A stretch of 22,255 nucleotides of DNA from positions 15,966 to 38,220 of IMG/VR virus record IMGVR_UViG_3300030329_004081, one strand, 5' to 3'. The notes beneath the pieces were generated by a model, which worked only from the letters and a program-made list of their open reading frames with translations, was not told the DNA's origin and made no database searches. The DNA is from a virus. Shown piece after piece: positions 1-21,646 of this stretch. The position numbers and the translations under genes were made by a program. The number at the start of each line of letters is the position of its first letter. Position 1 is the first letter of the stretch.

Positions 1-3000
1 TCTGATGATTAGCTAATGATGCAACTAGCCATCTACTTTGAGGCACTTTCCATGGATGCCAATTAGATCCATATGATGATATTGGAAGATGATATCCATA
101 TCCAGTCCCAGCCGTAATTAATGGGTTATCATGGGCCCATGATCCTATGAATGATGTGGCGGCTAATCCAAAAGGCCAAGAGACAGTATGCCAATTATTA
201 TTAGGATCATTTAACTCACAACTAGTAATACTTGTACCACTCAGAGGAGGCTGAGTCCCAGGTCCATTAATTGCTGATCCACAACCTGAATATGAAATTC
301 TTTCAGTTGGAGAATTGCGGAAAATACCGAATTGATTTCTCGGACCTAAAAATCCATGAGATGGAGTAGGCCAATTCGGATCTGGCTGCCCACCATCAAG
401 AGCTATCCCCATATCGTGATAGTTTCCAATTATAACGCTACAATCATAATCACAAGTAGGAACACAATCCATAACATCATTAAAGTAATCAACATTAAGT
501 ACCGCGCCTACTGGTATATTTGAAACGGCTACAGCTTGACAAACGCTCATTGCTCCATTACACATCCAAACAGGTGGAGGTGGTCCACAATCATCCATAC
601 AGTCATTATAATCAGTATAAGTTGTGAAACTAGCAATATTAGTACCTTGACAAGCTGGACTACTATTACATTCATAATATGGAAAACTTCCAGGAGAACA
701 AGATGCTTGACATAAGTGAAGAGCAGTAAATGTTCCAGTACCGTTACCAGGATTTACACATACGTTATTAATACAATTGTATGATATAGGATAAACACAC
801 GAGCCATCATCTATAGTACATGTTGGACAATAGTTAACTGCTGATGGATCTGTACAACCATAAACATTAGCACAATTTGCATCGCAATCATTAGGATCTG
901 TCCATGCACCAAGACCGTTTCCAGGATCATAACATTCACCAGGTAATACTGCTGTTGGGTACCCAGCCGACCAATCATCACAACCACTACTTGCTGGTGG
1001 ACAACAATCGTATGTAGGTATCACAGGTGAGCAACTACCAGCACAAGCCGCTTCTGTTAACGCTGGATCAAAACTATAATCTTGACCTTCAAAAGGTAAA
1101 CTATTACCATGTACACCATAACAACTTCCTACGTTAGCAGTCGTACTAGTTATAACATCATTACAACCATTAGGATCTGTACAACAACCATATGAAAAGT
1201 GTGAACCTGTAGTACCGCAAAGTGAATCACAAGTAGATTGAGATGGATAATAAGGACCATTAGGACCTGTTCCACCACTACCATCATTAAAGCAATTGTT
1301 TACTGGTGTAAGCGTTCCTGAGTTAGGATTTGTCCAATCTATACACCCATTCATAGTAACATCATAACCAGGTTTACTAGTATCACAACAAGACCAATGT
1401 GGCGTTGGAGGCTGAACAGGACATCCCGGTGTGTAAGGCCCAAATAAACCGTAACAACATGATTGTGTACCTCCATGCTCGCAAACTTCAAACCCCCATT
1501 GTCTAGTGGCATCAGGTGGGTTCCAAGTAGCTGGCGGGTCCCCATTAACACGCATAGTACCATCTACATATATTGGTAAAAGCGTGCCAGAAGCATAACC
1601 TGTAGGATCCCACTCAAACCATTTTATAGTCCAATGTGTACTTCCAAGAACATTACCACCGCATCCTAAACCAATACCAAGTTGTACACTAATAACACCA
1701 TTATTACATATTGGATAATTAGTTGCTGGTAGTTGAGTTACTGACATGGTATGTGGTGGGCATGTCCCATCAACTGGAGCACCTGGACACGATTGAGGTA
1801 ATACACAGTCTATTGTGAAAAGTGTATCAGTAAAGCAACCAAAATTATCAGTTACTCTAATATAATAGTCTCCATCTATAAATCCTGGAGGAAAAGCTAA
1901 TAACATCGTTTGAAGCGTTACAAATGAAGTATTTGTTGTATTACCAGAATAAGTTTGAGGATCCGTAGCTAATAAATTACCTGCGGCATCAAACCATTCA
2001 ACCGTCCATGTAGAAGCACCATTTAGCAATATAACATCTATATAAGCGTTACCATCATAATTACAATTAGGTGCTTTTCCTGTTGCGTCGGTTTTAAGCA
2101 CAGTGATATCATGAGGTGTACCAGTACAAGGTGCTATTGGAGCACAACTAGGAGAGTTTGCTATACACGTTGCTTCATCAGGATGTGGACCTGTTGTAGA
2201 ACCTAATAATTCTACACATTGAAAACCAGTACTTGTTACCGCGTTTTGAGGATTAGAACAGTTAGTGTAAGGGCAAGGGCATTGGAAAGTTGAAGCCGAC
2301 ACGTTCCATAAAAATCTTTGCTCACCAATACGTCCGTCGGGATCTGGACTACTAAAAAGAAGACCAACAGCATCTAAAAACTGAGTATAATTCATACCAA
2401 GATAAACTGGATACCATGTAGAATAATAATTTATTATTTCTTCCGCTGTGTAGAATTTTGGAGGCATTACATACGGTGTTATATGAAAAGGTGCTGTATT
2501 AATTCCATCTCCTTGTATATAATCCCAACCAAAATAGGTACAATTAATACAACCACCACTAACATCTGTACCACACCACTGTGATGCGTAATCTTCAAAT
2601 CTAAAACTTTGTCTAGAAGGTACGTCAAAAAACCATCTTAAATATTCTTGAAAACCTGCATCAGTAGTTCCTAATGGAACTTGAGGCAAATTACAATCTG
2701 TTTGATGATTACCATGTCTATTGTGTCCATCTGGAGAAGGTCCATTTTGTACTATAACATTCCTACCTGTATTAGGATTTACACAAGCATATGTAACAGG
2801 TTGACATTCCCAACTAGTTCCAGTTAAACCACATGGAGAGTTCACATCAGATAAACAACTTGGTTCATCTGCATAAGCACCACTCTGGTCATTTAATTTA
2901 ACACAAGTAGGCATAGATGAGCCAGCTATTTGATTATGGTGTACTACAAGGTTTATATCAATACCGTTAGCATTAAGAATATCTTTTACTCCAATTCTGG

Positions 3001-6000
3001 TTGGACCCATTCCTGAAATTGTTTCTTGCTCCCAAAGTAGATCTTGGGAAAGTAGTTTTGCTACTGTTAATTGACCACCAAATGTACCATATTGATTTTG
3101 TAGAAGCATAACAAGTCTAAGAGGATCACAGTATTCAAACACAGTGGAACCTGTAGTACACGTGCAATTGTTGTGTGTAGAACAATTAATATTATCAGTA
3201 ATATAAAAACCTGCTTTGATATTTGGATTAGGTGAACTTGAAGTAGCTGTAATATCAACTAAATTACAACCAAATTCATTATAATGATTTGCATAATCTG
3301 GATGTGTACTTGCTAAAACACCATCTATAGTTGTTGAGGTATCGTTTGCCCATTCTCCACCAAAAAGTGACATATAATGACCATCTGTATTATCTACACC
3401 ATTAACATAATGTGGATTTGGATTAAACGTAGCATCTACAGGACCCATTTCTATCCAAGAATTATGTAATCCAAAGTCAATTCCCGGTATATATACTGAT
3501 GTACCGTAGCTAGCAAACCATTGGTTCATGTAAGTTGGATTCATTCCAGGATTATGTGTGTATTCATTACCAAGAAGTGGTTTTGAATAAACAGGAACGT
3601 TTTGTTGACAATCCCAAGACGTGTAACCGCCAACTGTTGTTGATACACTACCCTGACCTATACCTTGGAATGAAAACTCTCTACCATCTAAATTTCCAGC
3701 TGTACCATCATCAGTCCACTCTGTATATTGACCTTTAACTTGAGAAAACCATTTACCTTCTTTTTCTTTAAATTCTTGTATATCTCCTTCTTGTAAATCA
3801 CTATTTATTGTGCTAACATACCAACCATTTTTAGCATAATTATCCCAGTATTCTCCAGAATCAGTTAAATTTTCTGTTACTTTAGCTTGACTACCTTCAT
3901 AATTAAGTGTTTGAAAACTTTTTACACTACCAGGTTGCTCGTTAAGCATAACCGTAACACTAGATTCACTTTGAGTATTGTGGAAATTATTTCTTACAAG
4001 ATTAGTATGGTGTTCCCATAAATCACCGTTTTTAATTGTATAATAACTATTATTTAAACTTATAGCATTTTCTGCTATCCATGATTTAAAACTAACCCAA
4101 CCCCTATTTATTTCAGAAAAAGACACTGTAGTATCAGTACTATCGGCTGGAGGTGTATATGTAGAAATAACCTCACTAGGATTATAAAATATTAATCTTG
4201 TATTCCAATATCCTAAACAGTCTACACATCCTGCTCCTGAAGTAATTGTTATAACGCCACCAACACCACCTAAACTAGCAACATCAACTAAACCTCCAGC
4301 TATACTTAATTCTAATTCTAGCATATCTATGCCATCATATGTAACATTTTGTACACTTAATATTTCAGCACCATCTGCAACACCGGCACCTTGTACTAAA
4401 CTACCAACTTGAACGTTTGTACCAAGATCAACCGTTATTTTATTTGTAGGTTTCCACGTTTGATCTGGTGCTGAGTTATCACAAGGTAGTGTTTTACAAT
4501 TAGCTAGCACCCACGCATAATACTGTGCGCTATATGTTGGAGGAAGTGTAATAGGAAAATCAGTATGATTTAAAGATATATTGTATTCTTTCTTTCTATC
4601 ATCAAAGCTACCATAAATTCTATTAGATAATGGTAATTTATCAGAGAACCAATCATGCATACCAGCATCAGATATTGGTGTTAATCCATCTTTTGATAAT
4701 CTTAAAACAGCTCCTCTACTTTTATCCGTAAAGTATGCTCTAAAGTTTTCCGTAGCAAATGATTCTGGATTTTTAGATATACCATACTCACCAGCATAAG
4801 GTTGTGCTTCACCTAAAACTCTATTTGTAGATATTAATTGTGGGTTACCATCAGCATTATATAAAGCGTCTTTATTTGCTAATATTTTTAAAACTCTATC
4901 TTCACAAAAAGCTGTTAATGTAAAGTTTCTTTGATGTAGTTTTTGTATACTACCATAAGTTGGGTTTAAATCTTTTGTAATTTTTTCTGCTTGTATAAAT
5001 TGATTTAAATTATTTATACCAGCTACAGAATTATATATACCAGAGTATATTAAACCACTACTTCTTCTTTCTTCTAAATAAGGCTCTTCTAATACTGTCG
5101 ATGCTTTTGCACCATTATCTATAGTAACTTGATTAAAGTCATCTCGTATTCTATCAGATTCAACACCATTACCAAACGAATAACAATTATGCCAAGGTAG
5201 TGTAACCTCGTAATTATGTAACTCAGTATCTAATATATATCCATTAGTGTTTTTCATATCATAACCAATAACAGTAGTTTCGGTTTTACTACCATTAGCT
5301 CTTGTAAATACTAATCTACTATTTATCGGTGGGAAATCAGGACCACTACTTCCATCGTGATTCAAACCAGCACCATTAACATCTGTTAAAAGTACTATAT
5401 CATCAACAGCGCCAAAAACTCTTATGTCGTCGTTATTTGGTATTGGAACTGCTGGAAATCCAGGATGTGTATCAAGTGTAACTGTACCGCCAGCAGGATC
5501 GTAACATGTTACATAACTATTTTCTTTTAGTTCAGCATGTATAGGTCCTAAAAATTGTTCGTTAGTATTATTATCTAACTTTATAGGATATGTTTGACCA
5601 ACTTCATAATATATATCTAAATCAACTTCTTCTTTAGGTTCTGTTTCCCATATAGCTGGATTAGTGCTTGCTGGATTTTCGTCGTCATAACTAAAATAAG
5701 GTGATAATACTTGCCAAGTTACAGAACCTGGAGCTGGTGATTGTATAGAACTACTATCAACCTTTTTTAAGTGTGGTATAGTTGTTTCAGTAATACTATT
5801 AAAACTATAACTACCACCAGGATAAGCGTGACCAGAATACATACCGTCATTACGTATACCAGGTGCTGGTGTCGTTGGTAAGTTCGTACCTGTTAAAACA
5901 GCTCCATTAACATCAAAGTGAGCGTCTAATGTGCTATCATTTGTTGGTGAATAATAATGAGGGCCAACTTGACCTATACTATAAGTTTGTCCACCACTAT

Positions 6001-9000
6001 CTGTTTGTAAACTTTCAGCATAAAATGTATATCTTCTTCTTTTCGCTCTAGAATGATCCCAATCAAGCGTATTACAAGGATACCTGTGATGAGGATCTGT
6101 TTCGTATATTATCCCGAATGACGATGTCGTACATAGATTACCCACACCTGGACAACCTATTGTCGTACTACTTGGAGAACCCCATCCACCAGAAGTTTCT
6201 AAAGGTTGTTCACCACTATTGCTATGATAAATTAAACCATCTTCAGGTGGGTATGTACCGGCGGTCCATTGGCTAAGCATAGTTGTAGGTGCACTACAAC
6301 CATTGTACATCTCTTGAGAAACCCAATTATGATGTTGAAACCCTGCAGGTGTTCCTGGGTGGTCATGAGCAACTGGATAATCCCCAAAATTAGCATAATT
6401 ATAAAGAAAAACACCTTTTTCACTAGGATTAAACATATAATCTTGTTGATTAAAAGACCATTCTGATGATGAAAATTCTACCATAGGTGCAACAAGAGGA
6501 AAAGGTGGAGTTTTTGTTCTATAAATAACCTGCCCTGGGTCTTCTCTCCATCTCCATATTGTACCAGGTGTTGTAATAGCGTTTATAAAATCCATTTCGG
6601 CAACTTTATCTACAGCCCACGTAGCAGCTGGCATGTTAAAGCTCGAAGCAACATGAGATAAACTAGTTAAATTACTTCCGTTAGCATTATTGTTATATTG
6701 ATTATTTTCGCCATAACCAGCTTTAGATAATGTTATAACGTTATAATTTGCACTATTATAGACACCACCAAGGGCAAAAACATGACCAACATTGTTAGCG
6801 TCAACACCATGTACAGCGCTACCTGAGGGTATTCTACCAAAATTAGAAGCTGAAGTATTTTGTAATCTACCCCACCTAGGCGATGGAAACATAGATCCTG
6901 GTCCTATCTGAAAACCATTATTATCATAAAAAGGACTTCTCATATCTGTTATACCTAAATAACCTTGTGGTAAACCACCACCCATGTATTCGCCAGTAGG
7001 TTGAACTTGCATACCCATATCTTCATTTCCACCAGCGTTTATTGCCATTTCTTCATGAGTTACCCCATAGGTATAATCACAAAGATAAGTAAGTTCAAGC
7101 CAACATTTATTGATAGGATGGTTTAAATCTATAACATTTGTTCTTGGTACAGTATATTGAGATTTAAAATCATGTCCATACCATTCATCTGAATTAAAAA
7201 ATGGTCTAAATCCTTCTATTTTATCTATAAACCAACCATTAGAAGCCGTTGTGTTTGATTGTCCAGATACGTGGTCCCAATATGCTTCACCCTCTCCAGG
7301 TCCACCAGCACAAAAAGGTGTCGCACCATTATCTGAACTAATAGATATTTTTTGTTCACCACTAGATCCTGGTCCAAAACCTGGATCAAAACCAAACCAT
7401 CCGTTACCATATCCAATTGGATTCATTGCGCTTGGTATATTAGTGTTTATATATTGCGAAGTAATAGATTGTACTACATTATAATTTGAAGAAGTACCAA
7501 AACCTGTTACTACAAAATTATCTATAAATTGATCTCTTTTAATTTTAGCAAAAAATCTACCTTGAAATTCTGGTTTACTTAATACTTCTTGTTTACTTAA
7601 TAATAATTCTAAGTTTGTTACAGCAGTAGCAAAACTTCCATCAGTTGATGTTATATTAACATCAGGACCTAAAGACTTTTTAAATACTATTTTGTAAGCG
7701 CCATTATTACCATTTGGCATAGGATGATTACCTAGTTCTATTACACTTTTTATCTCATAAGCTTTACTAACTCCATAGCTGGATTTAAATCTTAATCTAT
7801 ATTCATGCAAATGCCCTTGTTCCATCTCTACTAATCTAGTTTTCCAATGACTATCAAAATCACCTTGATAAACATATATAAAATCTCCGCCATCAAGTGG
7901 AAAACCATCACCATTAGCCTGTCCTATAATTTGTGGTGTACTAGCACCTTCATCAACAATACTAGGTTGTGGTTTTTCAAAAGTTTTTATAAATTGTGGA
8001 GCTTCATTTTCTATTGCTATAACTTTATATCTTGCTGGTCCTGAAATAAACTCATCACTATCATGTCCTTTTTTAAGTATTAAATACGTATCTAAATCTA
8101 ATTTATTTCTTTCAGCAGATGGAAAAGATAACCATATATTACCATCTTCAGCATCATACCAACGATCCATAGCTAAATTGTAGTATTCTCCAGATGTTTC
8201 TTTTATATAAAATTTAAATGATTTTGCCCATTCAGGATAAGTATTAAATATTTGGGCTTTTAATTTTGTTTGCTGATTAGCTGTATCTTTGTTAACATAT
8301 ATAGAATTTTTATCAGAATTACTATCTGAAAACACTGGTGTTTCTCTACCAAGTTCATCTATATAAACAACACCAATTTGATAATGTCTTAATGTTTTTA
8401 TTGATTTAGCCGGTACATATGAATATGCTCTTTTTGGATTATATTGTTCAGGAATAACACTTCCAACGTCGTTGGTTCTTATTGATGTTTTTATTTCAAT
8501 ATTTATATCACTTTCTGCATCTAAAATAGAAGGACTAAATACTCCAGTACTGTCAACCTTTCCCAAAGCAATAGAACTAATAGGGACAGAATTAAATAAA
8601 TTATAGTTTTGTAAATAGTTACCATAAACTAATCTATTACCAACAAGTTCTTGACCTAAAGCTTTTCTAGGTACGTTATCATAAGGTCTTAATAATTGGT
8701 TTGACGGAAGAATAGCATGTATCATTTCCGTTGTTATTTTTACAAAACCTGATGTTCTTATAGCGCTTAAGCTTGGTAAAATAGTATCTTCACTATTAGC
8801 ATTCCACTCTTCGTATTTACCAGTTGGATCTGGTAACGTACGTTTTATTGTTTTTACAGAATATATATTTGGAGAGTTGGATTCTTTATATAATATATCT
8901 ATAGCAACAACATCACTAGGTATTTGTCTGTGATCAACAAAATCTTTAATAACTAAATTTCTTAGTCTATTAACCATACCTAAATTATAAGCTTCTTTAG

Positions 9001-10105
9001 GTAGATAATCAAATTTATCTGGTAAAAAAGCTACTTCTGTAAAAGGTGAAAACGTTGAATATTCACCGTCTTCATATTTATACCTATAAGCAAATCTTGG
9101 AAATTTAAACCTAAATAAGGCTTTTTCTTGTTCTAACTCTGATAAAAATTCATAATTTGAAGAAGCAAAATACATATTACCAGATATTATTTTTACCAAA
9201 CATTCTCCATCCCAACCAGGCTGTATTATTTCACCATCTATTATTTCTACTCTAATAGATTGTTCGTTACCACTAGCTTTTATAATTAATATATCTCCAT
9301 CTTTATAATCTGGATAATTAGGACCATCAAATTGTATGCTAATAGGTGTATCATATAGTTCACCAGTTGTTGAATTTATAAATATATTTTCAGGAACTGA
9401 TATAATACCATTTAATTCACCACGTCTACTATCCTCATCTAAATCCTCTCTATCTGTATTTATCATTTCTAAACTTGGAGCTGTAGGTGGGGCTTTTTTA
9501 ATAACAGTTAAATGCTCGTGTTGAATAGGACCACTTGCTCTATATTGTATTTGATTTATAGATGTTAAATTATCTCTTACGTAAAATTGAGTTTGTGTAG
9601 TAAAATCTACAGAACCCATTTTACATCTTGGTATATTTATTCTTTTTGGCTCCGTATTGTTATCTGTCCAAAATAATATATCATCAACAATATTAATACC
9701 AGTAATTAAGAAAGCTTTATCAAAATTAAGAGCTCTACCACTTTCATTATAAGCTATTGTATTAGGAGCAAATATATCAACAACTACCGGAGAAACTGTT
9801 TGTGTTTTATAATCGTATTCTGCAATAACATCTATACTTTCACCAGCTAATAGCCAATATAGTTTATCATTTTTTTCATCAGTTATACTACCAACACAAA
9901 AAAATGTTTGATTATTTCCTGGATCTATAACTGAAGAAGATAAATCAGTGTTACCTAACAAGGTTTGTAAAGTTCCCATGTTAGAACTTTCAGAAGTAGC
10001 AACTTCAACATTTACAGCATGTCTATATTCGCCCTGTGGTACTAATCTTTCATCAAGGTCTTTGTTCATTCGACCTTTCATGAAGTTGTGCTTCAATTCC
10101 GCCAT
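1..10105 (-). CDS. Giant tail structural / host-contact protein, 3' end beyond the window
   Basis: An ATG at 10105 opens a frame that stays open to base 2, giving 3,368 codons; the true stop is off the left edge. I checked the frame line by line at the distal end and at sampled points elsewhere. The start follows the previous gene's stop by 4 bp and has an A/T-rich leader. Residues 1-1900 look like one structural-protein family: an N-terminus with MNKDLDERLVPQGEYR, a WTDNNTEPKRINI motif near residue 135, a block with KFYIKETSGEYYNLAMDRWY near 625, and NFRAYFTDKSRGAVLRLS near 1780. From memory, similar sequences occur in large proteins of uncultured marine phages. From about residue 2400 the protein becomes rich in Cys, Gly, Pro and Asn. 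It holds SprB-like modules (about 2664-2765, possibly 2785-2880) and a Cys-rich block (2903-3222). I infer a conserved tail-attached base and a diversified distal host-binding part. No transmembrane segment or enzyme motif was recognised. Confidence 0.88.
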   Translation of the reverse strand, partial: MAELKHNFMKGRMNKDLDERLVPQGEYRHAVNVEVATSESSNMGTLQTLLGNTDLSSSVIDPGNNQTFFCVGSITDEKNDKLYWLLAGESIDVIAEYDYKTQTVSPVVVDIFAPNTIAYNESGRALNFDKAFLITGINIVDDILFWTDNNTEPKRINIPRCKMGSVDFTTQTQFYVRDNLTSINQIQYRASGPIQHEHLTVIKKAPPTAPSLEMINTDREDLDEDSRRGELNGIISVPENIFINSTTGELYDTPISIQFDGPNYPDYKDGDILIIKASGNEQSIRVEIIDGEIIQPGWDGECLVKIISGNMYFASSNYEFLSELEQEKALFRFKFPRFAYRYKYEDGEYSTFSPFTEVAFLPDKFDYLPKEAYNLGMVNRLRNLVIKDFVDHRQIPSDVVAIDILYKESNSPNIYSVKTIKRTLPDPTGKYEEWNANSEDTILPSLSAIRTSGFVKITTEMIHAILPSNQLLRPYDNVPRKALGQELVGNRLVYGNYLQNYNLFNSVPISSIALGKVDSTGVFSPSILDAESDINIEIKTSIRTNDVGSVIPEQYNPKRAYSYVPAKSIKTLRHYQIGVVYIDELGRETPVFSDSNSDKNSIYVNKDTANQQTKLKAQIFNTYPEWAKSFKFYIKETSGEYYNLAMDRWYDAEDGNIWLSFPSAERNKLDLDTYLILKKGHDSDEFISGPARYKVIAIENEAPQFIKTFEKPQPSIVDEGASTPQIIGQANGDGFPLDGGDFIYVYQGDFDSHWKTRLVEMEQGHLHEYRLRFKSSYGVSKAYEIKSVIELGNHPMPNGNNGAYKIVFKKSLGPDVNITSTDGSFATAVTNLELLLSKQEVLSKPEFQGRFFAKIKRDQFIDNFVVTGFGTSSNYNVVQSITSQYINTNIPSAMNPIGYGNGWFGFDPGFGPGSSGEQKISISSDNGATPFCAGGPGEGEAYWDHVSGQSNTTASNGWFIDKIEGFRPFFNSDEWYGHDFKSQYTVPRTNVIDLNHPINKCWLELTYLCDYTYGVTHEEMAINAGGNEDMGMQVQPTGEYMGGGLPQGYLGITDMRSPFYDNNGFQIGPGSMFPSPRWGRLQNTSASNFGRIPSGSAVHGVDANNVGHVFALGGVYNSANYNVITLSKAGYGENNQYNNNANGSNLTSLSHVASSFNMPAATWAVDKVAEMDFINAITTPGTIWRWREDPGQVIYRTKTPPFPLVAPMVEFSSSEWSFNQQDYMFNPSEKGVFLYNYANFGDYPVAHDHPGTPAGFQHHNWVSQEMYNGCSAPTTMLSQWTAGTYPPEDGLIYHSNSGEQPLETSGGWGSPSSTTIGCPGVGNLCTTSSFGIIYETDPHHRYPCNTLDWDHSRAKRRRYTFYAESLQTDSGGQTYSIGQVGPHYYSPTNDSTLDAHFDVNGAVLTGTNLPTTPAPGIRNDGMYSGHAYPGGSYSFNSITETTIPHLKKVDSSSIQSPAPGSVTWQVLSPYFSYDDENPASTNPAIWETEPKEEVDLDIYYEVGQTYPIKLDNNTNEQFLGPIHAELKENSYVTCYDPAGGTVTLDTHPGFPAVPIPNNDDIRVFGAVDDIVLLTDVNGAGLNHDGSSGPDFPPINSRLVFTRANGSKTETTVIGYDMKNTNGYILDTELHNYEVTLPWHNCYSFGNGVESDRIRDDFNQVTIDNGAKASTVLEEPYLEERRSSGLIYSGIYNSVAGINNLNQFIQAEKITKDLNPTYGSIQKLHQRNFTLTAFCEDRVLKILANKDALYNADGNPQLISTNRVLGEAQPYAGEYGISKNPESFATENFRAYFTDKSRGAVLRLSKDGLTPISDAGMHDWFSDKLPLSNRIYGSFDDRKKEYNISLNHTDFPITLPPTYSAQYYAWVLANCKTLPCDNSAPDQTWKPTNKITVDLGTNVQVGSLVQGAGVADGAEILSVQNVTYDGIDMLELELSIAGGLVDVASLGGVGGVITITSGAGCVDCLGYWNTRLIFYNPSEVISTYTPPADSTDTTVSFSEINRGWVSFKSWIAENAISLNNSYYTIKNGDLWEHHTNLVRNNFHNTQSESSVTVMLNEQPGSVKSFQTLNYEGSQAKVTENLTDSGEYWDNYAKNGWYVSTINSDLQEGDIQEFKEKEGKWFSQVKGQYTEWTDDGTAGNLDGREFSFQGIGQGSVSTTVGGYTSWDCQQNVPVYSKPLLGNEYTHNPGMNPTYMNQWFASYGTSVYIPGIDFGLHNSWIEMGPVDATFNPNPHYVNGVDNTDGHYMSLFGGEWANDTSTTIDGVLASTHPDYANHYNEFGCNLVDITATSSSPNPNIKAGFYITDNINCSTHNNCTCTTGSTVFEYCDPLRLVMLLQNQYGTFGGQLTVAKLLSQDLLWEQETISGMGPTRIGVKDILNANGIDINLVVHHNQIAGSSMPTCVKLNDQSGAYADEPSCLSDVNSPCGLTGTSWECQPVTYACVNPNTGRNVIVQNGPSPDGHNRHGNHQTDCNLPQVPLGTTDAGFQEYLRWFFDVPSRQSFRFEDYASQWCGTDVSGGCINCTYFGWDYIQGDGINTAPFHITPYVMPPKFYTAEEIINYYSTWYPVYLGMNYTQFLDAVGLLFSSPDPDGRIGEQRFLWNVSASTFQCPCPYTNCSNPQNAVTSTGFQCVELLGSTTGPHPDEATCIANSPSCAPIAPCTGTPHDITVLKTDATGKAPNCNYDGNAYIDVILLNGASTWTVEWFDAAGNLLATDPQTYSGNTTNTSFVTLQTMLLAFPPGFIDGDYYIRVTDNFGCFTDTLFTIDCVLPQSCPGAPVDGTCPPHTMSVTQLPATNYPICNNGVISVQLGIGLGCGGNVLGSTHWTIKWFEWDPTGYASGTLLPIYVDGTMRVNGDPPATWNPPDATRQWGFEVCEHGGTQSCCYGLFGPYTPGCPVQPPTPHWSCCDTSKPGYDVTMNGCIDWTNPNSGTLTPVNNCFNDGSGGTGPNGPYYPSQSTCDSLCGTTGSHFSYGCCTDPNGCNDVITSTTANVGSCYGVHGNSLPFEGQDYSFDPALTEAACAGSCSPVIPTYDCCPPASSGCDDWSAGYPTAVLPGECYDPGNGLGAWTDPNDCDANCANVYGCTDPSAVNYCPTCTIDDGSCVYPISYNCINNVCVNPGNGTGTFTALHLCQASCSPGSFPYYECNSSPACQGTNIASFTTYTDYNDCMDDCGPPPPVWMCNGAMSVCQAVAVSNIPVGAVLNVDYFNDVMDCVPTCDYDCSVIIGNYHDMGIALDGGQPDPNWPTPSHGFLGPRNQFGIFRNSPTERISYSGCGSAINGPGTQPPLSGTSITSCELNDPNNNWHTVSWPFGLAATSFIGSWAHDNPLITAGTGYGYHLPISSYGSNWHPWKVPQSRWLVASLANHQ
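440..1399 (-). repeat. Cys-rich imperfect repeat block in the giant tail protein (residues 2903-3222)
   Basis: I count 35 Cys in 320 residues. The block consists of about six imperfect modules. Each opens with an aromatic residue and then one or two Cys (HWSCC, YGCC, YDCC, YNC, YEC, WMC). Each continues through a Gly/Asn/Pro-rich stretch and ends with two spaced Cys (for example TCDSLC, DCDANC, LCQASC, DCMDDC). The third module carries an extra unit at residues 3083-3106 beginning GCTDPSAVNY and ending TIDDGSCVYP. From memory, units of this CTDP...DDGSC type recur in secreted proteins of marine Bacteroidota. Repeats differ in sequence and length at DNA level, so they are old or diversified rather than recent tandem copies. 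Disulfide bonding outside the cell or metal binding is possible; neither is shown. Confidence 0.75.
1811..2116 (-). other. SprB-repeat-like (adhesin-type) module inside the giant tail protein
   Basis: Residues 2664-2765 have the layout of the repeat found in SprB-type gliding adhesins of flavobacteria. A Cys followed by an Asp-Gly (NCNYDGNAYIDV) opens the domain, a WTVEWFDAAGNLL strand lies in the middle, and the module closes with GDYYIRVTDNFGC followed by a short strand. The family signature as I know it is Cys...DG near the start and a G-Y-x-h-x-V-T-D-x-x-G-C ending. Both are present. A second, more divergent copy may follow at residues 2785-2880, with an ICNNGVISV opening and a WTIKWFEWDP strand, but it lacks a clean VTD-GC ending. 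The match is by eye only. Confidence 0.6.
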
Positions 10106-16181: not shown

Positions 16182-18602
16182 TTATCTAGGATCAAACGCG
16201 CCTAAATCAAATCCGCCTCCTAGTATATCATTACCTGCGGACTCAAAGTTTTTAGGTGGCTTACCTGTTTTTCTTTGCTCAATCATCTCACTTTGTTGAG
16301 TTGCTTGAATCTTTGTTCTTTGATCTTTTCTATTTTCTTTTTCAGTTTCTCTACTTCTAGCACCTTGAACTTCCATACTTTTTAACTGCATGTTCATTTG
16401 GAACTCTAAATGCATGAGTTCTTTTTTGTGTTCAACTTCTTGCATCATTTTTTGAGAATCAATTTGAGCTTTCATTTGTTCTAGTTGAGCTTCAGCCTGA
16501 ACTTTAGCTTGATTTTTTTGCATTTCAGCATTAGCAGCAGCTTCAGTTGCTTGTATATTAGACTCTGTTTGTTGTTGCATGTTTTGCTGTTGAATCTGTT
16601 GATCTCTAGCAAGTTTCTTTTTTCTACGAACTTTTAAAAGTTGATTAGCTAGTTTAATATTATTTATTTCTCTAAGATCAATAGCATCTTCCATTTCTAT
16701 ATTTTGTTGTTGTAATGCCATTTGAATATTATTTTCAAGCATTGCTTTTTCTTCTTCATCTGGTAATAGTTCTATAAATATACCAAAATCATATAAATGA
16801 AGATTTTTCATTTCATCTAATGTAGCTACATTATGAGAACCTATAGCTTGAATAAATGCGTCTCTTGTTGGAGAATATTCTATAATATCAGATATTCTAA
16901 GCGATAAACATTCAGCTGTTTCTGCTGTTAAATATAATCCAGCTTGTAATATATGTCTTGTAGCTGTGTTACTATTAGCTGCTGCCATTTTTTGAACACC
17001 AACTAAAGCATTTTTATCAGGCGTTGCGGCATCTCTTGCTTCATTTAATCCGGTTACATCTCTTATCATTTGTAGATAATAATTATAATTACCTATAAGA
17101 GCTTGCATTTTATTACCACCGCTACCACTTGTTATTTCTTGAATAGGTACTTTACCAGGATTCATATCACCATCTTGAGTAAATGATCTACCAATTACCG
17201 AACCAGTTTGGAAGAACATGTTTAAAGCTTCTTGTGGATTATAATTAGTTCCATTACCTAAATCTATTTCTGCTAAACCGTCAGCGTCAAGATAAACACC
17301 ATCTGGTACCATTCTTGATAATACTTGTTGTAGTTTTAAATGTGTTAACTGAATCATATCAGCAAAACCAGTAATTCTACTTACTAAAGATTCTATTTTA
17401 CCCTCGTACATTCTAGGTGCTACAATAGAATAATTCATTTTAACTTTAGTAAAATCACTTTTAGGACGCATCATGTTTTTAGACATTTCCCATTTAAGTA
17501 ATTTATTTGTACCTAAAATTAAAGCGCCCTCGTATATAGTTTCTATAGATCTTAATAATTTAGAATAACCACCCTCCATGTCTTCTGGTGGGTTAAATTG
17601 ATCATCTTTAGGTATAATTTTATCAGCGCCAGTACCAGTTTCTTTCATTTTATAAACCTCATTCATATAGGTTTTATAATTAAAATAAAGAATATCTACT
17701 TTGTTATTATCTTCATCTACATTACGATCATTATATCTACTAGATGCGTTGCTACTAGTTTTTATAATTTCTTCTAAATCTTCATGTTCTAAGTGTGGAA
17801 ATTGTTTTACAAGTTCATTGATAGGTATAGATTTCATTTCACCAACATAATATATATCATCAAAATAAGGAGATTCAGTATAAGAATATACTAAATCAGC
17901 TGGATCAACATAATCAATAGTAACACCTTCAGAAGTATTAAAATTAGTTTTAACAGCACCTATACCTAAAACCGCTAAATCATAATAAAATCTTTTCTTT
18001 GTTAACTCGTATTTATTACCTTCAAACAAAACTTTTAAAGCTTGTTCTTCAGCTAACTCTACAGTTTGTTTATAACTTAGAGCCATATGTAAATCTAGTT
18101 CTTCCTGAGAATCTGGTAACGTTTCTTTTTCGTTTTCATAAAGATTTATATTGAAATTACTTAAAGCAAATTCATTAAAATCTTTAGTAGCCATGTCCTT
18201 CATTATAGATTCCATGTACTCGGTTCTTTTACTAACACCAAATGGATCTTGAGAATAAGCTTTTATATCGTACATTCTTTCAGCTATACCATTAACAACT
18301 ATATCTACAAATTTAGGTATAATTGGAACTGGTTTCCAATCTAAATTTAAATAGGACAAATCACCGTTTATAGATAACTCATCCTTATATTTTTGTATAG
18401 ATTGTTCTCCACGAGCATACAATCTTAAATTATGAAAATTATTTTTATTATTCTTATATCTACCACCTTTTATATTATTTTCACCATAAAACCATTCGTT
18501 TTCAATAGCTTTAGCTACTTTTAACCCATAGTCAAAGCTCAACTTTTCAGCGTCACTTACGACTTGGCTTGGAAAATATTTTTTTACAACAGACTCTGCC
18601 AT
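16182..18602 (-). CDS. Portal protein
   Basis: This 806-residue protein sits between the large terminase (2-bp gap) and the scaffold gene, and its size matches the large portals of podovirus-like and crAss-like phages. The N-terminus contains helices typical of portal wing and clip regions (NFHNLRLYARGEQSIQKYKD, then WKPVPIIPKFVDIVVNG). A core follows with DLAVLGIGAVKTNF and IDYVDPADLVYSYTESPYFD, the usual portal pattern around a Y-x-D-P-x-x-hh motif. From about residue 664 to 775 the chain is an almost continuous Gln/Glu/Ala/Met/Lys-rich helix, consistent with a long C-terminal barrel or coiled coil extending into the capsid. The last 30 residues are Gly/Pro/Asp-rich (DILGGGFDLGAFDPR) and probably flexible. 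It would form the dodecameric DNA gate at one capsid vertex and dock the terminase. The ATG lies in an AT-rich leader. Confidence 0.87.
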   Translation of the reverse strand: MAESVVKKYFPSQVVSDAEKLSFDYGLKVAKAIENEWFYGENNIKGGRYKNNKNNFHNLRLYARGEQSIQKYKDELSINGDLSYLNLDWKPVPIIPKFVDIVVNGIAERMYDIKAYSQDPFGVSKRTEYMESIMKDMATKDFNEFALSNFNINLYENEKETLPDSQEELDLHMALSYKQTVELAEEQALKVLFEGNKYELTKKRFYYDLAVLGIGAVKTNFNTSEGVTIDYVDPADLVYSYTESPYFDDIYYVGEMKSIPINELVKQFPHLEHEDLEEIIKTSSNASSRYNDRNVDEDNNKVDILYFNYKTYMNEVYKMKETGTGADKIIPKDDQFNPPEDMEGGYSKLLRSIETIYEGALILGTNKLLKWEMSKNMMRPKSDFTKVKMNYSIVAPRMYEGKIESLVSRITGFADMIQLTHLKLQQVLSRMVPDGVYLDADGLAEIDLGNGTNYNPQEALNMFFQTGSVIGRSFTQDGDMNPGKVPIQEITSGSGGNKMQALIGNYNYYLQMIRDVTGLNEARDAATPDKNALVGVQKMAAANSNTATRHILQAGLYLTAETAECLSLRISDIIEYSPTRDAFIQAIGSHNVATLDEMKNLHLYDFGIFIELLPDEEEKAMLENNIQMALQQQNIEMEDAIDLREINNIKLANQLLKVRRKKKLARDQQIQQQNMQQQTESNIQATEAAANAEMQKNQAKVQAEAQLEQMKAQIDSQKMMQEVEHKKELMHLEFQMNMQLKSMEVQGARSRETEKENRKDQRTKIQATQQSEMIEQRKTGKPPKNFESAGNDILGGGFDLGAFDPR

Positions 18603-18604
18603 AT

Positions 18605-20824
18605 TTATTCTTTAATTATTTTAGACACATTACCTTTATTTTGATATTTAGAAATGTGTATATTTAATTTTGGTTTTTCAATTTTTGCATTTGGCGCATA
18701 CAAATGTCTATTACAACCCATTATAGCTAAACCGCTACTTATCGTTGCATCAAACTTTGTTCTTTTATTTATATCAAATCTACTCCAATCATTTAGTAAA
18801 GTATTAAAATAAAGATTTCCAAATGTTCCATCTTGCTTCATGCCCACGTGATCTTGTATATACATTTCAATAGCAGCTGCATGAGCTTGTTTTATATCCT
18901 CACTTGAGTTTGGTATACCTCCAACTTCTTTTTCAGCTGTAGATAGTTTGTTCCAAATTTTATCAGGTCTATTCATACTAAAACCTCTATAACCTCTTCT
19001 TCTTAAGTAGTATAATAATCTAGGTTTATTATTCTCCGCAAGTATTGGCATTCCATAAAATACTAATGCCATTAAAACATCTTCAAAAAATATCTCAGCC
19101 GTAGGCGGTCTTGATAAGTATTCTAAAAAGAAGCTATTTGCAGGAGCGTCCTCCATGCTGAACTTTGTTAGTCCGTGGAGAGCTCCTTTAGAACCTTCAC
19201 CATCTACGGTTCCTGATATATCATAAGAGTCGCAACCAAAGGCCCCCATATGTTCATTACCAGGATATTTTATGCCATTTTTTAGTATAACTCTATTTTG
19301 TAATTCTTGTTTAGGAACCCAACTTATTTTAAATCTTCCTTTTGGATCAGGATAAAATATTACTTGTGAATCTTTTATACCACCAACCCATTGAAAATTA
19401 CCAGTTGTAATACCTAATGTTCTAGACATTTCTTCGTTATAATCTATTTGTTCATATATTTTAACTAAGTTAAATATACTATTTTTAGTTTCATCACGAA
19501 AAGCATGCTCTTCAGTTCTAGGAAATTGGCGATAAAATTCATTTAAAGCATCTTGATCATCTTTTAAACCATCAGCTTCATTTTGCCAATTATCAATTAC
19601 ACCTATATCTATTAATTCGCCGTCTGGGGCGAGTATATCTGAGTCAGGAGTAGTAAATACTGGAAATCCGTACTCATCAATAAATCCTTCGTAGTTCCAT
19701 TCCATTGGGACAAACAAAGAGTATAAACCAGATTTTGTTTGACCATTTCTATTTCTTTTAGTGACATCGGATGCTTTGTATAGTTTTTTAAAATTGTCTC
19801 CACCTTTATCTAATGCGTTTGAAGTAGAGCCCATCATGCATTTACCAACTATTCTACTACCTAGTCGCAAACATGTTTTTGTAACTCTCCAGTTATTTAA
19901 AATATTATCGGGTCTTTCCCATTTACCACTTTCATCATGCACTAGTAAGTTTAGTTTTTCACCATCATAACTATTATCACCAGTATTCTTCCAATCAATT
20001 GTTGTATCTAAACCTTGTAGATCTTCTAATTTTTCGTTAGACGTTATTTTTTTACGAGTAAATTTACTTGCTGGCACTCTATATGCTAACTCTGATTTAG
20101 GTCTATCCATACCATCTTGTATAGGTTTAAAAAAGAACGGGTAGTTTATACTTATCGGAACTACTTTGTCAGTAAACATCTTCTTAGCATCTGAACCTGT
20201 TTTAGATAGGATACCATATCTACTATCACTCGCAAGAGTGGCTAAATTAACTGTTTCTGCACTCGACATAAAAGAAAATCCAGAACGACGATTTTTAAGA
20301 TAACACATGCCATAACATCTTTTATCAGCTTTACAAGCTTCCCAGAATATATAAAACAATCTATTTGCCTCTCTAAAATCTGGAGCACCTACATCTATCT
20401 TGCTCCATTGAAGATACATATAATGTGTACCTGTTAAATATGTTGGTTTGTTTTTATTTATAAACCAAAAACCCTCATCTCTACGTTTAAACTCTTCATC
20501 TATATAATCAAACCATTGATCTTTAGCTTCGTCTGGATAATTTCTCCAATCAAATATGTTTTTTAAACGAGTTAATTCTTTTGGTTGTTCTATTTTTGAC
20601 CACTTATTCCCTTGCAGTTTATGTACTTGCACGGGCACAGATGGTAAAGCAATTCTAAGATTTTGGATTTCATATATTTCGCCTATTTTACCTGTTTTAG
20701 ATATAACAATAACATCGTGTTCTTTATTATATCCATACTTCCATTTTTTACCACGATTCATTCTAGTTATCGTAGTTTTTTTAATGGGTTCTATTATTTT
20801 AACTAATGTTTGCTCGTAACTCAT
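18605..20824 (-). CDS. terL: Terminase large subunit (ATPase-nuclease packaging motor)
   Basis: This 739-residue protein has both halves of a DNA-packaging terminase. In the ATPase domain, a Walker-A-like segment LKNRRSGFSFMSS lies at about 176-188, followed by Walker B with catalytic acid LLVHDE at 293-298 and a coupling-motif-like MGSTSN at 331-336. In the C-terminal RuvC-like nuclease domain the candidate acidic residues are D532 (GCDSYD), E597 (ILAENNK) and D692 (FDATISSGLAIMG). The Walker A is atypical: KNRRSGFS instead of GxxxxGK[ST], a kind of deviation known for terminases, where an upstream basic residue can stand in. There is no sign of an intein or frameshift. It overlaps the upstream 91-residue gene by 4 bp (ATGA), suggesting translational coupling, and precedes the portal gene by 2 bp. 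It should work at the portal vertex, driving DNA into the prohead and cutting concatemers. From memory it belongs to a large uncultured marine phage terminase group. Confidence 0.92.
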   Translation of the reverse strand: MSYEQTLVKIIEPIKKTTITRMNRGKKWKYGYNKEHDVIVISKTGKIGEIYEIQNLRIALPSVPVQVHKLQGNKWSKIEQPKELTRLKNIFDWRNYPDEAKDQWFDYIDEEFKRRDEGFWFINKNKPTYLTGTHYMYLQWSKIDVGAPDFREANRLFYIFWEACKADKRCYGMCYLKNRRSGFSFMSSAETVNLATLASDSRYGILSKTGSDAKKMFTDKVVPISINYPFFFKPIQDGMDRPKSELAYRVPASKFTRKKITSNEKLEDLQGLDTTIDWKNTGDNSYDGEKLNLLVHDESGKWERPDNILNNWRVTKTCLRLGSRIVGKCMMGSTSNALDKGGDNFKKLYKASDVTKRNRNGQTKSGLYSLFVPMEWNYEGFIDEYGFPVFTTPDSDILAPDGELIDIGVIDNWQNEADGLKDDQDALNEFYRQFPRTEEHAFRDETKNSIFNLVKIYEQIDYNEEMSRTLGITTGNFQWVGGIKDSQVIFYPDPKGRFKISWVPKQELQNRVILKNGIKYPGNEHMGAFGCDSYDISGTVDGEGSKGALHGLTKFSMEDAPANSFFLEYLSRPPTAEIFFEDVLMALVFYGMPILAENNKPRLLYYLRRRGYRGFSMNRPDKIWNKLSTAEKEVGGIPNSSEDIKQAHAAAIEMYIQDHVGMKQDGTFGNLYFNTLLNDWSRFDINKRTKFDATISSGLAIMGCNRHLYAPNAKIEKPKLNIHISKYQNKGNVSKIIKE

Positions 20825-21096
20825 TTTGATCTTCCTTCGGCAAATCCTTTAAACACTCTTTCTTTTTTTTCTTCAGGTTCTTTGCCTTCCAAAATGTTTT
20901 CTTCTTCTTGAATTCTATTAAGTATTTCAAATGCGTCAAATATAGCTAGTTTTTTAGTTGCTGCAGCATTTTTTAATCTATCAGCAGATATATCATCATC
21001 AGAATCAACAATAGCTTCTTTAGCTACTTTAATTAATTCCTCAACTGCTTTGTGCCCAGCTTGGATTATACGTTTCTTCGTCTCCTTGATGTTCAT
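20821..21096 (-). CDS. Small helical protein, candidate terminase small subunit
   Basis: This 91-residue protein is predicted to be almost all helix: an N-terminal basic helix (MNIKETKKRIIQAGHKAVEE), an acidic turn with DSDDDISADRLK, and a second long helix with AATKKLAIFDAFEILNRIQE followed by a Glu/Lys-rich end. Position directly before the large terminase, with an ATGA overlap, plus its size and helicity make a small terminase subunit the first guess. I do not recognise a helix-turn-helix with confidence, so the call is positional. Its start lies 56 bp inside the upstream gene, and no other good Met start is present downstream of it, so the overlap looks genuine. An alternative is a small regulator of packaging or an unrelated late protein. 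Confidence 0.45.
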   Translation of the reverse strand: MNIKETKKRIIQAGHKAVEELIKVAKEAIVDSDDDISADRLKNAAATKKLAIFDAFEILNRIQEEENILEGKEPEEKKERVFKGFAEGRSK

Positions 21097-21646
21097 ATTT
21101 GATTGTAATTAAATTTGATAAAACTCTATATAATCTGTTTCCATCTACCATAAATTCAGATTGTGTTTTAGGTTGATAACCTATAATATCTCCTATATTT
21201 ACAGTACCGTCAGAATATTTTACAACGCCAACAAATTGTTTTTCTTTATCTATACTAAACTTATCTTTATCTACAATTGGTTCTACAAAACAATAACCTT
21301 TTGGAGCATACCAATTATTATCAGAAAAACTATTACAGTATTTTACTAAAAATATTTGATCTTGATCTATAATATAAGTGTTTTCATTGAAATAACTTCT
21401 ACTATTCTTTTCTTCACCTCTAACATTATGCCATCTACGAAATACGTTATGATGCACAATAACTTCATCCCCTGGTTTTAAATCAGTTTCTATCGCGATA
21501 GGCGTAGAGACTATTATAGCAGTCTTATTTATATATTGATGATTAAAAATTTCGGTGTTAAGTATAAGTTCTTTATCACCTATCTTTTTCTTATTGTTGT
21601 ATCTCCCTCCTTTTGGTTTTACAACAAAGTTGTAAACACTTCTCAT
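21041..21646 (-). CDS. Two-domain GroES-like co-chaperonin
   Basis: This 201-residue protein seems to hold two chaperonin-10-type halves. In the first (about 1-103), VYNFVVKPKG matches the opening strand of GroES. A Gly/Lys/Asn-rich loop then carries KELILN (25-30), where GroES has its mobile loop with IVL and T4 Gp31 has IIL. Next come the strand TAIIVSTPI, then DLKPGDEVIVHHN (compare VKVGDxVxF), and YIIDQDQIFLV at the end (compare the GroES ending near SDILAIV). In the second half (about 116-187) GYCFVEPI, FVGVVKYSDGTVNIGDIIGY and RLYRVLSNLITIKYE repeat the same order without an obvious mobile-loop anchor. A GroES-like protein would cap the host GroEL to fold the phage capsid protein, as T4 Gp31 does, and it lies just before the head genes. 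The start overlaps the previous stop (TAATG). Fold assignment is by eye. Confidence 0.6.
   Translation of the reverse strand: MRSVYNFVVKPKGGRYNNKKKIGDKELILNTEIFNHQYINKTAIIVSTPIAIETDLKPGDEVIVHHNVFRRWHNVRGEEKNSRSYFNENTYIIDQDQIFLVKYCNSFSDNNWYAPKGYCFVEPIVDKDKFSIDKEKQFVGVVKYSDGTVNIGDIIGYQPKTQSEFMVDGNRLYRVLSNLITIKYEHQGDEETYNPSWAQSS

Follow-up and report, generated by a model that had tools for sequence, protein, structure and literature searches.

Sequence evidence for a diverged SprB-type repeat in the C-terminal extension of a crassvirus-type muzzle protein

Introduction

The window analyzed here spans 22,255 nucleotides (bases 15966-38220) of a virus record that is 38,220 bases long (IMGVR_UViG_3300030329_004081), and its minus strand contains most of the gene of a giant protein. 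A preliminary description had pointed out in this protein a segment laid out like the repeats of SprB, the very large surface adhesin of gliding flavobacteria. The locus raises the question of what kind of protein carries the segment, whether the likeness to SprB reflects common descent, and what such a module could do on a phage.

Carrier protein and gene neighborhood

The carrier gene and its surroundings comprise the following features (window coordinates, strand in brackets).

2..10105 (-): muzzle-type tail-tip protein, 3,368 residues inside the window (open reading frame (ORF) list and translation)
3677..10105 (-): muzzle core, residues 1-2143 (alignment A3 with five GenBank relatives of 1,324-1,612 aa)
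3734..3994 (-): crassvirus muzzle C-terminal domain, residues 2038-2124 (PF25729)
2..3676 (-): C-terminal extension after the muzzle core, residues 2144-3368, running on to about residue 3650
16182..18602 (-): portal protein (phrog_6547, 503 bits)
18605..20824 (-): terminase large subunit (phrog_6681, 569.5 bits; 62.9% identity to MW202828.1)

The ORF 2..10105 was matched by the PHROGs family phrog_14478 (virion structural protein) at 430.8 bits, and the Pfam family PF25729 (crAss_MUZ_C) scored 28.9 bits in the window protein (cut-off 27, E 1.6e-6) and 24.5 bits, against the same cut-off, in a homologue from IMG/VR (L002). A related muzzle (L213) carries both crAss_MUZ_C (37.3 bits) and crAss_MUZ (56.6 bits). 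The gene lies among portal, terminase and further structural genes, the neighborhood of a crassvirus-type muzzle, and within the muzzle core alignment A3 shows insertions specific to the window protein, chiefly at residues 880-1603 (approximate limits). The muzzle homologues of the Cellulophaga phages phi40:1 and phi18:3 are virion proteins proven by MS/MS. A search of solved structures with the whole protein and with the muzzle alignment yielded no match. What the preliminary description had left as an unspecified phage tail protein is, judged by PF25729, phrog_14478 and the domains of L213, a crassvirus-type muzzle (tail-tip gatekeeper) of a Pervagoviridae/Pachyviridae/Elemovirus-like phage. 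In crAss001, the muzzle forms a tail-tip hexamer that acts as a gate for the channel and probably makes contact with the cell (PMC10172136).

At its C-terminus the protein is truncated by the edge of the window, and a run of 10 Ns with a frame break lies just beyond it, outside window position 1 and inside the muzzle gene (contig bases 15956-15965); this run is a gap in the record rather than the true end of the gene. The homologue in L002 is intact, with one continuous ORF of 3,652 residues, and the extension has a length of about 1,500 residues.

With the terminase or the muzzle core as query, tblastn found matches in 87 GenBank phages, namely phages of Flavobacterium, Cellulophaga, Tenacibaculum and Maribacter plus one uncultured record; those examined belong to Pervagoviridae, Pachyviridae or Elemovirus or are unclassified. 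The nearest cultured relatives stand outside the order Crassvirales in the NCBI taxonomy, and phi13:2 has been treated as an outgroup (PMC10172136).

Some neighboring genes may be mentioned. A GroES-like co-chaperonin gene (21041-21646 (-); phrog_13932, 55.5 bits) is found near the terminase gene, and cpn10 is a listed core protein of Pervagoviridae. Downstream of the muzzle, locus L001 encodes a 2,496-aa protein (L001:2632-10122 (-)) with a HEVLH motif and hydrophobic stretches; relatives have a giant gene at the same place, and the product is possibly an ejected virion cargo protein. By eye, L001:25-393 (-) encodes a thermonuclease-like protein and L001:572-913 (-) a small, thioredoxin-like protein that probably has a signal peptide and could matter for the disulfides of a Cys-rich tail.

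Module 1 and its relation to SprB repeats

1805..2119 (-): module 1, diverged SprB-type Ig-like repeat, residues 2663-2767 (profiles, shuffles, reciprocal searches, AlphaFold)

Residues 2664-2765 of the minus-strand ORF 2..10105 correspond exactly to window positions 1811-2116, and the SprB-like layout noticed earlier is real and located there, with C18..DG21-22, W37-x-x-x-W41 and a closing G82-D-Y-Y-I-R-V-T-D-N-F-G-C94 (module numbering). The conserved Cys, the Trp and the closing G-x-Y..D..GC stand in co-linear order with the SprB repeat (alignment A5 and profiles). The W-x-x-x-W strand, which had been named as a SprB feature, is present but not in itself typical of SprB; only its second W aligns with the SprB Trp (alignment A5), the first one occupying the position of the Tyr in the SprB motif GGxxPY. 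The core motif GG-x-x-PY-x-Y is absent from the window module, which reads NGASTWTVEW at that place.

The profile search proposed in the preliminary description gave no significant result: PF13573 (gathering score 28 bits) matched neither the module alone (E<=10) nor the whole protein nor the whole record, while bacterial positive controls were matched. The PF13573 model spans 37 residues including GGxxPYxYxW, the very part altered in the phage module, and a full-repeat profile was therefore built (72 columns, 1,146 repeats from 80 bacterial loci; the loci were collected with a consensus-like SprB query, and only locus sequences entered the profile). This profile scored the module at 15.9 bits in the window and 16.8 bits in L002, scores that none of about 3,000 shuffles of each module reached, and the best-scoring 110-aa stretches along the whole protein all cover the place of module 1.

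In the reciprocal direction, a profile of the window and L002 modules (A1) was searched in 396 Flavobacteriales genomes, where its matches fall in large repeat ORFs; within the retrieved loci, nearly every A1 match overlaps a SprB repeat and keeps its register. In bacterial ORFs picked without A1, the best A1 matches were all SprB, with modest single scores. A contig search with the two-row module alignment gave no match, and in muzzle proteins A1 detected the same kind of module in L214, L221 (two copies) and L216. The resulting six-row phage profile (window, L002, L214, L221 twice, L216), whose rows were chosen without using SprB, produced 428 matches (E<0.01) across 328 ORFs of bacterial loci with SprB repeats, every one of them inside SprB repeats, which make up 35% of the residues of those ORFs; none of 60 column-shuffled profiles gave any match at that threshold. 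Its best score was 25.6 bits (L038, co-linear over the whole repeat) versus 9.2 for shuffled columns. A profile of the four other phage modules, excluding window and L002, found the window module at 37.6 bits, exactly at residues 2664-2767.

The phage and SprB profiles are not perfectly specific, since the SprB consensus gives weak matches to Ig domains of the Hoc-like and tail-tube kinds in enterobacterial phages, and an eight-row phage profile, two rows of which were chosen by eye, gives weak matches to T9SS sorting domains, which are sandwiches as well. Taken together, the home-built profiles, shuffles and reciprocal searches bear out the homology proposed earlier and identify residues 2664-2765, on profile evidence, as a diverged SprB-type repeat below Pfam detection; Pfam alone misses this family relation. 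As a side observation, hmmscan gave no SprB match in the 900-aa tail of L216, yet its last 556 residues scored 41.8 bits, so that SprB repeats within long proteins rich in Cys can be lost to the filters of HMMER.

Predicted fold

An AlphaFold model from 32 rows (phage modules and SprB repeats) had a pLDDT of 76.2 and a pTM of 0.71 and showed a seven-strand sandwich; the two phage rows alone gave an all-beta model with a pLDDT of 45, which is unreliable. Module 1 is accordingly modeled as an Ig-type beta-sandwich, the fold that the preliminary description had expected, from an alignment whose SprB rows favor a sandwich outcome. The Foldseek neighbors were Ig, PKD and related sandwiches of a generic kind, and no neighbor reached E<=0.001.

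Remainder of the extension and host-type modules

Beyond module 1, the extension contains the following features.

1421..1762 (-): module 2, a paralogous, more diverged copy, residues 2782-2895 (module-2-row profile)
452..1294 (-): Cys-repeat array, residues 2938-3218, with six C-x(n)-C-x3-C units (2938-2963, 2995-3025, 3058-3078, 3111-3136, 3146-3173, 3189-3218)
797..862 (-): YGCTDPSAVNYCPTCTIDDGSC motif, residues 3082-3103 (from the sequence; recurs in host ORFs)
2..430 (-): start of the C-terminal region, about residues 3226-3652 in L002 (window phage and L002 only)

The module-2 profile matches module 1 of the window and of L002 at 22-23 bits (E about 1e-7). A direct match of module 2 to SprB was considered and rejected, as the profiles give none; its kinship to module 1 alone holds. 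A profile of 21 host Cys units scored 25.5 bits at residues 3108-3136 and 16.5 bits at 3054-3078 in the window and 27.5 bits in L002, compared with 13.3 bits for the best of 986 Cys-fixed shuffles, which marks these units as host-type Cys repeats; the remaining four window units were assigned by pattern only. The motif, which reads GCTDPSAVNY..DDGSC in the window and has the general form GCTDPxAxNY..DDGSC, occurs likewise in six host ORFs (L199, L201, L202, L204, L206, L207). Among the 81 muzzle proteins compared, none but the L002 protein itself matches its C-terminal 322 residues.

The Cys-rich region matches 104 of the 396 Flavobacteriales genomes at E<=0.001, mostly genomes of 1-2 Mb. In the best host ORFs (L196-like), an FG-GAP region and four or five tandem Cys repeats directly precede a Por_Secre_tail T9SS sorting domain, and in L199 and L207 a SprB-type repeat adjoins GCTDP motifs in one protein. 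All three kinds of module in the phage tail (SprB, Cys, GCTDP) therefore occur in exported proteins of the host order; this modular tail of three host-type kinds had been missed in the preliminary description. The flavobacterial host hint given there holds up, both from the 87 GenBank phages and from the 104 genomes, and for contigs lacking cultured hosts it points to marine, mostly small-genome Flavobacteriales.

Extensions among relatives and origin of the modules

An IMG/VR scan with the muzzle alignment found 592 relatives, of which the best 80 were taken, so that 81 muzzle proteins were compared. Within this set the end of the core could be placed in 72 of the 81; 33 of the 72 have a tail of at least 200 residues, and 19 of those 33 carry at least one of the three module kinds. 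Among the same 72 proteins, 84 of 85 module matches lie after the muzzle core, and the number and order of modules vary between phages. The tail of L216, for instance, has Cys repeats and a diverged module and terminates in a SprB repeat of Pfam grade (41.8 bits). In the GenBank phage collection, the cultured relatives (1,324-1,612 aa) have no counterpart of the window residues after about 2143, and no GenBank phage matched the module or the extension. The extension as such has a homologue only in L002 of IMG/VR, and many uncultured relatives have muzzle tails that are similarly placed. As these relatives infect with muzzles that lack it, the extension is not essential for muzzle function. Another related muzzle (L213:10001-19087) ends, after Cys repeats, in a Hint/pretoxin-HINT domain at about residues 2887-3026 (PF07591, 38.4 bits, cut-off 27.7; PF01079, 32.8 bits), a self-cleaving domain unexpected at the end of a phage tail-tip protein.

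In a tree with a first set of bacterial SprB repeats, the diverged phage modules stood separate (96/92) and the canonical repeat of L216 fell among the bacterial rows, which suggests more than one origin of the modules; repeated acquisition is likely. Once repeats of marine hosts were included, the phage modules had no resolved base. The GC content at fourfold sites was 0.14 in the modules, 0.07-0.10 in the core and Cys repeats and 0.16 in the terminase gene; this lends no support to a recent transfer, the value of the modules not being distinctive. Capture of the module from a host, as first suggested, is plausible, with its direction not resolved by the trees and no clear foreign footprint in the fourfold-site GC.

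Proposed role

Established by sequence are the homology of the module, its place after the core, the modular variation and the sharing of modules with T9SS-exported host proteins. We consider that the muzzle extension, in which module 1 is a diverged SprB-type repeat and the first of a tandem pair, probably acts as host-contact arms. The extension strings together modules of extracellular type (SprB-like repeats, disulfide-type Cys repeats and the GCTDP/DDGSC motif) and would remain on the virion; by analogy with the crAss001 hexamer, six copies would project as flexible arms around the tail tip. The arms could make the first contact with the host envelope or extracellular matrix, probably directed at glycans or surface proteins, and this contact could bring the muzzle close enough to open the gate. 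The modules would vary between phages with the host surfaces, and the different assortments found at the same place in relatives suggest an exchangeable surface-contact device. As a wider and more tentative proposal, the muzzle C-terminus may be a cassette site in uncultured marine crassvirus relatives, at which adhesin modules from the T9SS surface proteome of the hosts are gained and exchanged and the arms set which flavobacterial surfaces are stuck to, the SprB-type repeat being one such cassette.

The main rival to host-contact arms is a passive spacer or stabilizer, in which the modules would be filler that provides length, disulfide stability and weak, Hoc-like stickiness to the matrix, with no specific receptor role. 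Ig domains are widespread as phage decorations (Hoc-like matches), the modules vary in number and order, the muzzle cores of cultured relatives work without them, and tail proteins of crAss001 are stabilized by disulfides (PMC10172136). However, the modules are not arbitrary Ig domains but belong to kinds that the likely host order employs in its exported surface proteins, and they sit on a protein thought to touch the cell; we regard the spacer as rather unlikely.

The preliminary description had proposed that the module binds the same polysaccharides as SprB or competes for SprB partners, which found no support here. Docking of the module onto partners of the host gliding adhesin, or competition with them, would agree with the homology of the module to SprB repeats and with reports that genes of the gliding machinery affect phage adsorption in Cellulophaga, being needed for adsorption by Cellulophaga phages (PMC13288928). 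Such mimicry nevertheless appears improbable: the phage has one or two diverged repeats, Pfam found no T9SS tail domain in the window protein, and many exported Bacteroidota proteins carry SprB-type repeats, so that the resemblance does not single out partners of SprB.

A coincidental Ig-like similarity, with G-x-Y..V-T-D..G-C reached by convergence rather than by common descent with SprB repeats, would fit the modest single-sequence scores (16 bits), the failure of PF13573 and the slight overlap of the profile with other beta-sandwich families. It is very hard to reconcile with the silence of all 60 shuffled profiles, the placement of 428 of 428 matches inside SprB repeats, co-linear matches over the whole repeat such as that of L038, and the L216 extension, where a SprB repeat of Pfam grade occurs together with a diverged module. 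Finally, an assembly artefact joining a phage contig to a bacterial adhesin gene, which the run of Ns and the broken frame next to the window might suggest, can practically be dismissed given the continuous 3,652-aa ORF of L002 on an independent contig from another metagenome (about 73% identity over the module, thus no copy), the same downstream genes in the same order, and the further muzzles with such tails.

Comparison with known systems

The SprB repeat (PF13573), found in exported adhesins of Bacteroidota including SprB of Flavobacterium johnsoniae, is like module 1 a co-linear repeat of about 70-100 aa with an early Cys, a Trp beta-strand, a closing G-x-Y-x-x-x-V-T-D-x-x-G-C and an Ig-type sandwich model, whereas the phage module lies below Pfam detection, lacks GGxxPYxY and has a loop longer by about 20 residues. 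Unlike the SprB adhesin, the phage has two modules only instead of long arrays, and its carrier is a virion protein without a signal peptide whose N-terminus is the conserved muzzle start; Pfam found neither Por_Secre_tail nor CHU_C in the window or L002 protein.

With the crassvirus muzzle (crAss001 gp44; PF25731, PF25729) the window protein shares an N-terminal core, the MUZ_C domain and the gene order beside portal and terminase, and with the muzzles of Pervagoviridae, Pachyviridae and Elemovirus (phi40:1 gp097, phi18:3 gp114, elemoF) a core of about 30% identity and neighboring structural genes. The latter are 1,324-1,612 aa long without extension, whereas the window muzzle is more than twice as long as those of cultured relatives and has a modular C-terminal extension; the published length variation of muzzles concerns the crass and IG2 domains (PMC10172136), not such tails. 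Hoc-like and other Ig decorations of phages likewise place Ig-type modules with a presumed adhesion role on virions, but they are different proteins with different Ig families and are mostly borne on the capsid or tail tube. The FG-GAP, Cys-repeat and Por_Secre_tail proteins of marine Flavobacteriales (L196, L197, L200, L205) have the same Cys repeat of about 30 aa (x-Y-x-C..C-x-DPG-x-G-x-G-x-Y..C-x3-C); unlike the phage protein they are bacterial, with a signal peptide and a sorting domain.

SprB repeats on phages are not new as such, because at least 99 IMG/VR contigs encode them and 'SprB repeat' is already among the names in a viral structure library, for an uncultured phage protein. The literature searched for SprB repeats together with phage yielded no description of muzzle tails built from SprB and other T9SS-type modules. 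The window muzzle connects phage tail tips with the range of modules seen in adhesins exported by type IX secretion, and it points to a concrete, testable candidate site of host-contact variability in uncultured marine crassvirus relatives, which are abundant.

Two further groups of SprB-bearing loci were seen in IMG/VR. The first (L146:5011-7467 and about 25 similar loci among L118-L162) encodes a protein of about 820 aa with SprB repeats, a PKD-like domain and the type IX secretion signal CHU_C; next to its gene lie genes for a baseplate hub, a tape measure and two tail sheaths. Either this protein is an adhesin that a phage encodes as T9SS cargo, or it belongs to a contractile injection system wrongly classed as viral. 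The second (L129, L135-L140, L165-L178) encodes proteins that lack a signal, carry six or seven SprB repeats and frequently begin with MACxxGLTDGVYxYxDCCG; this group is apparently another phage family with SprB arrays.
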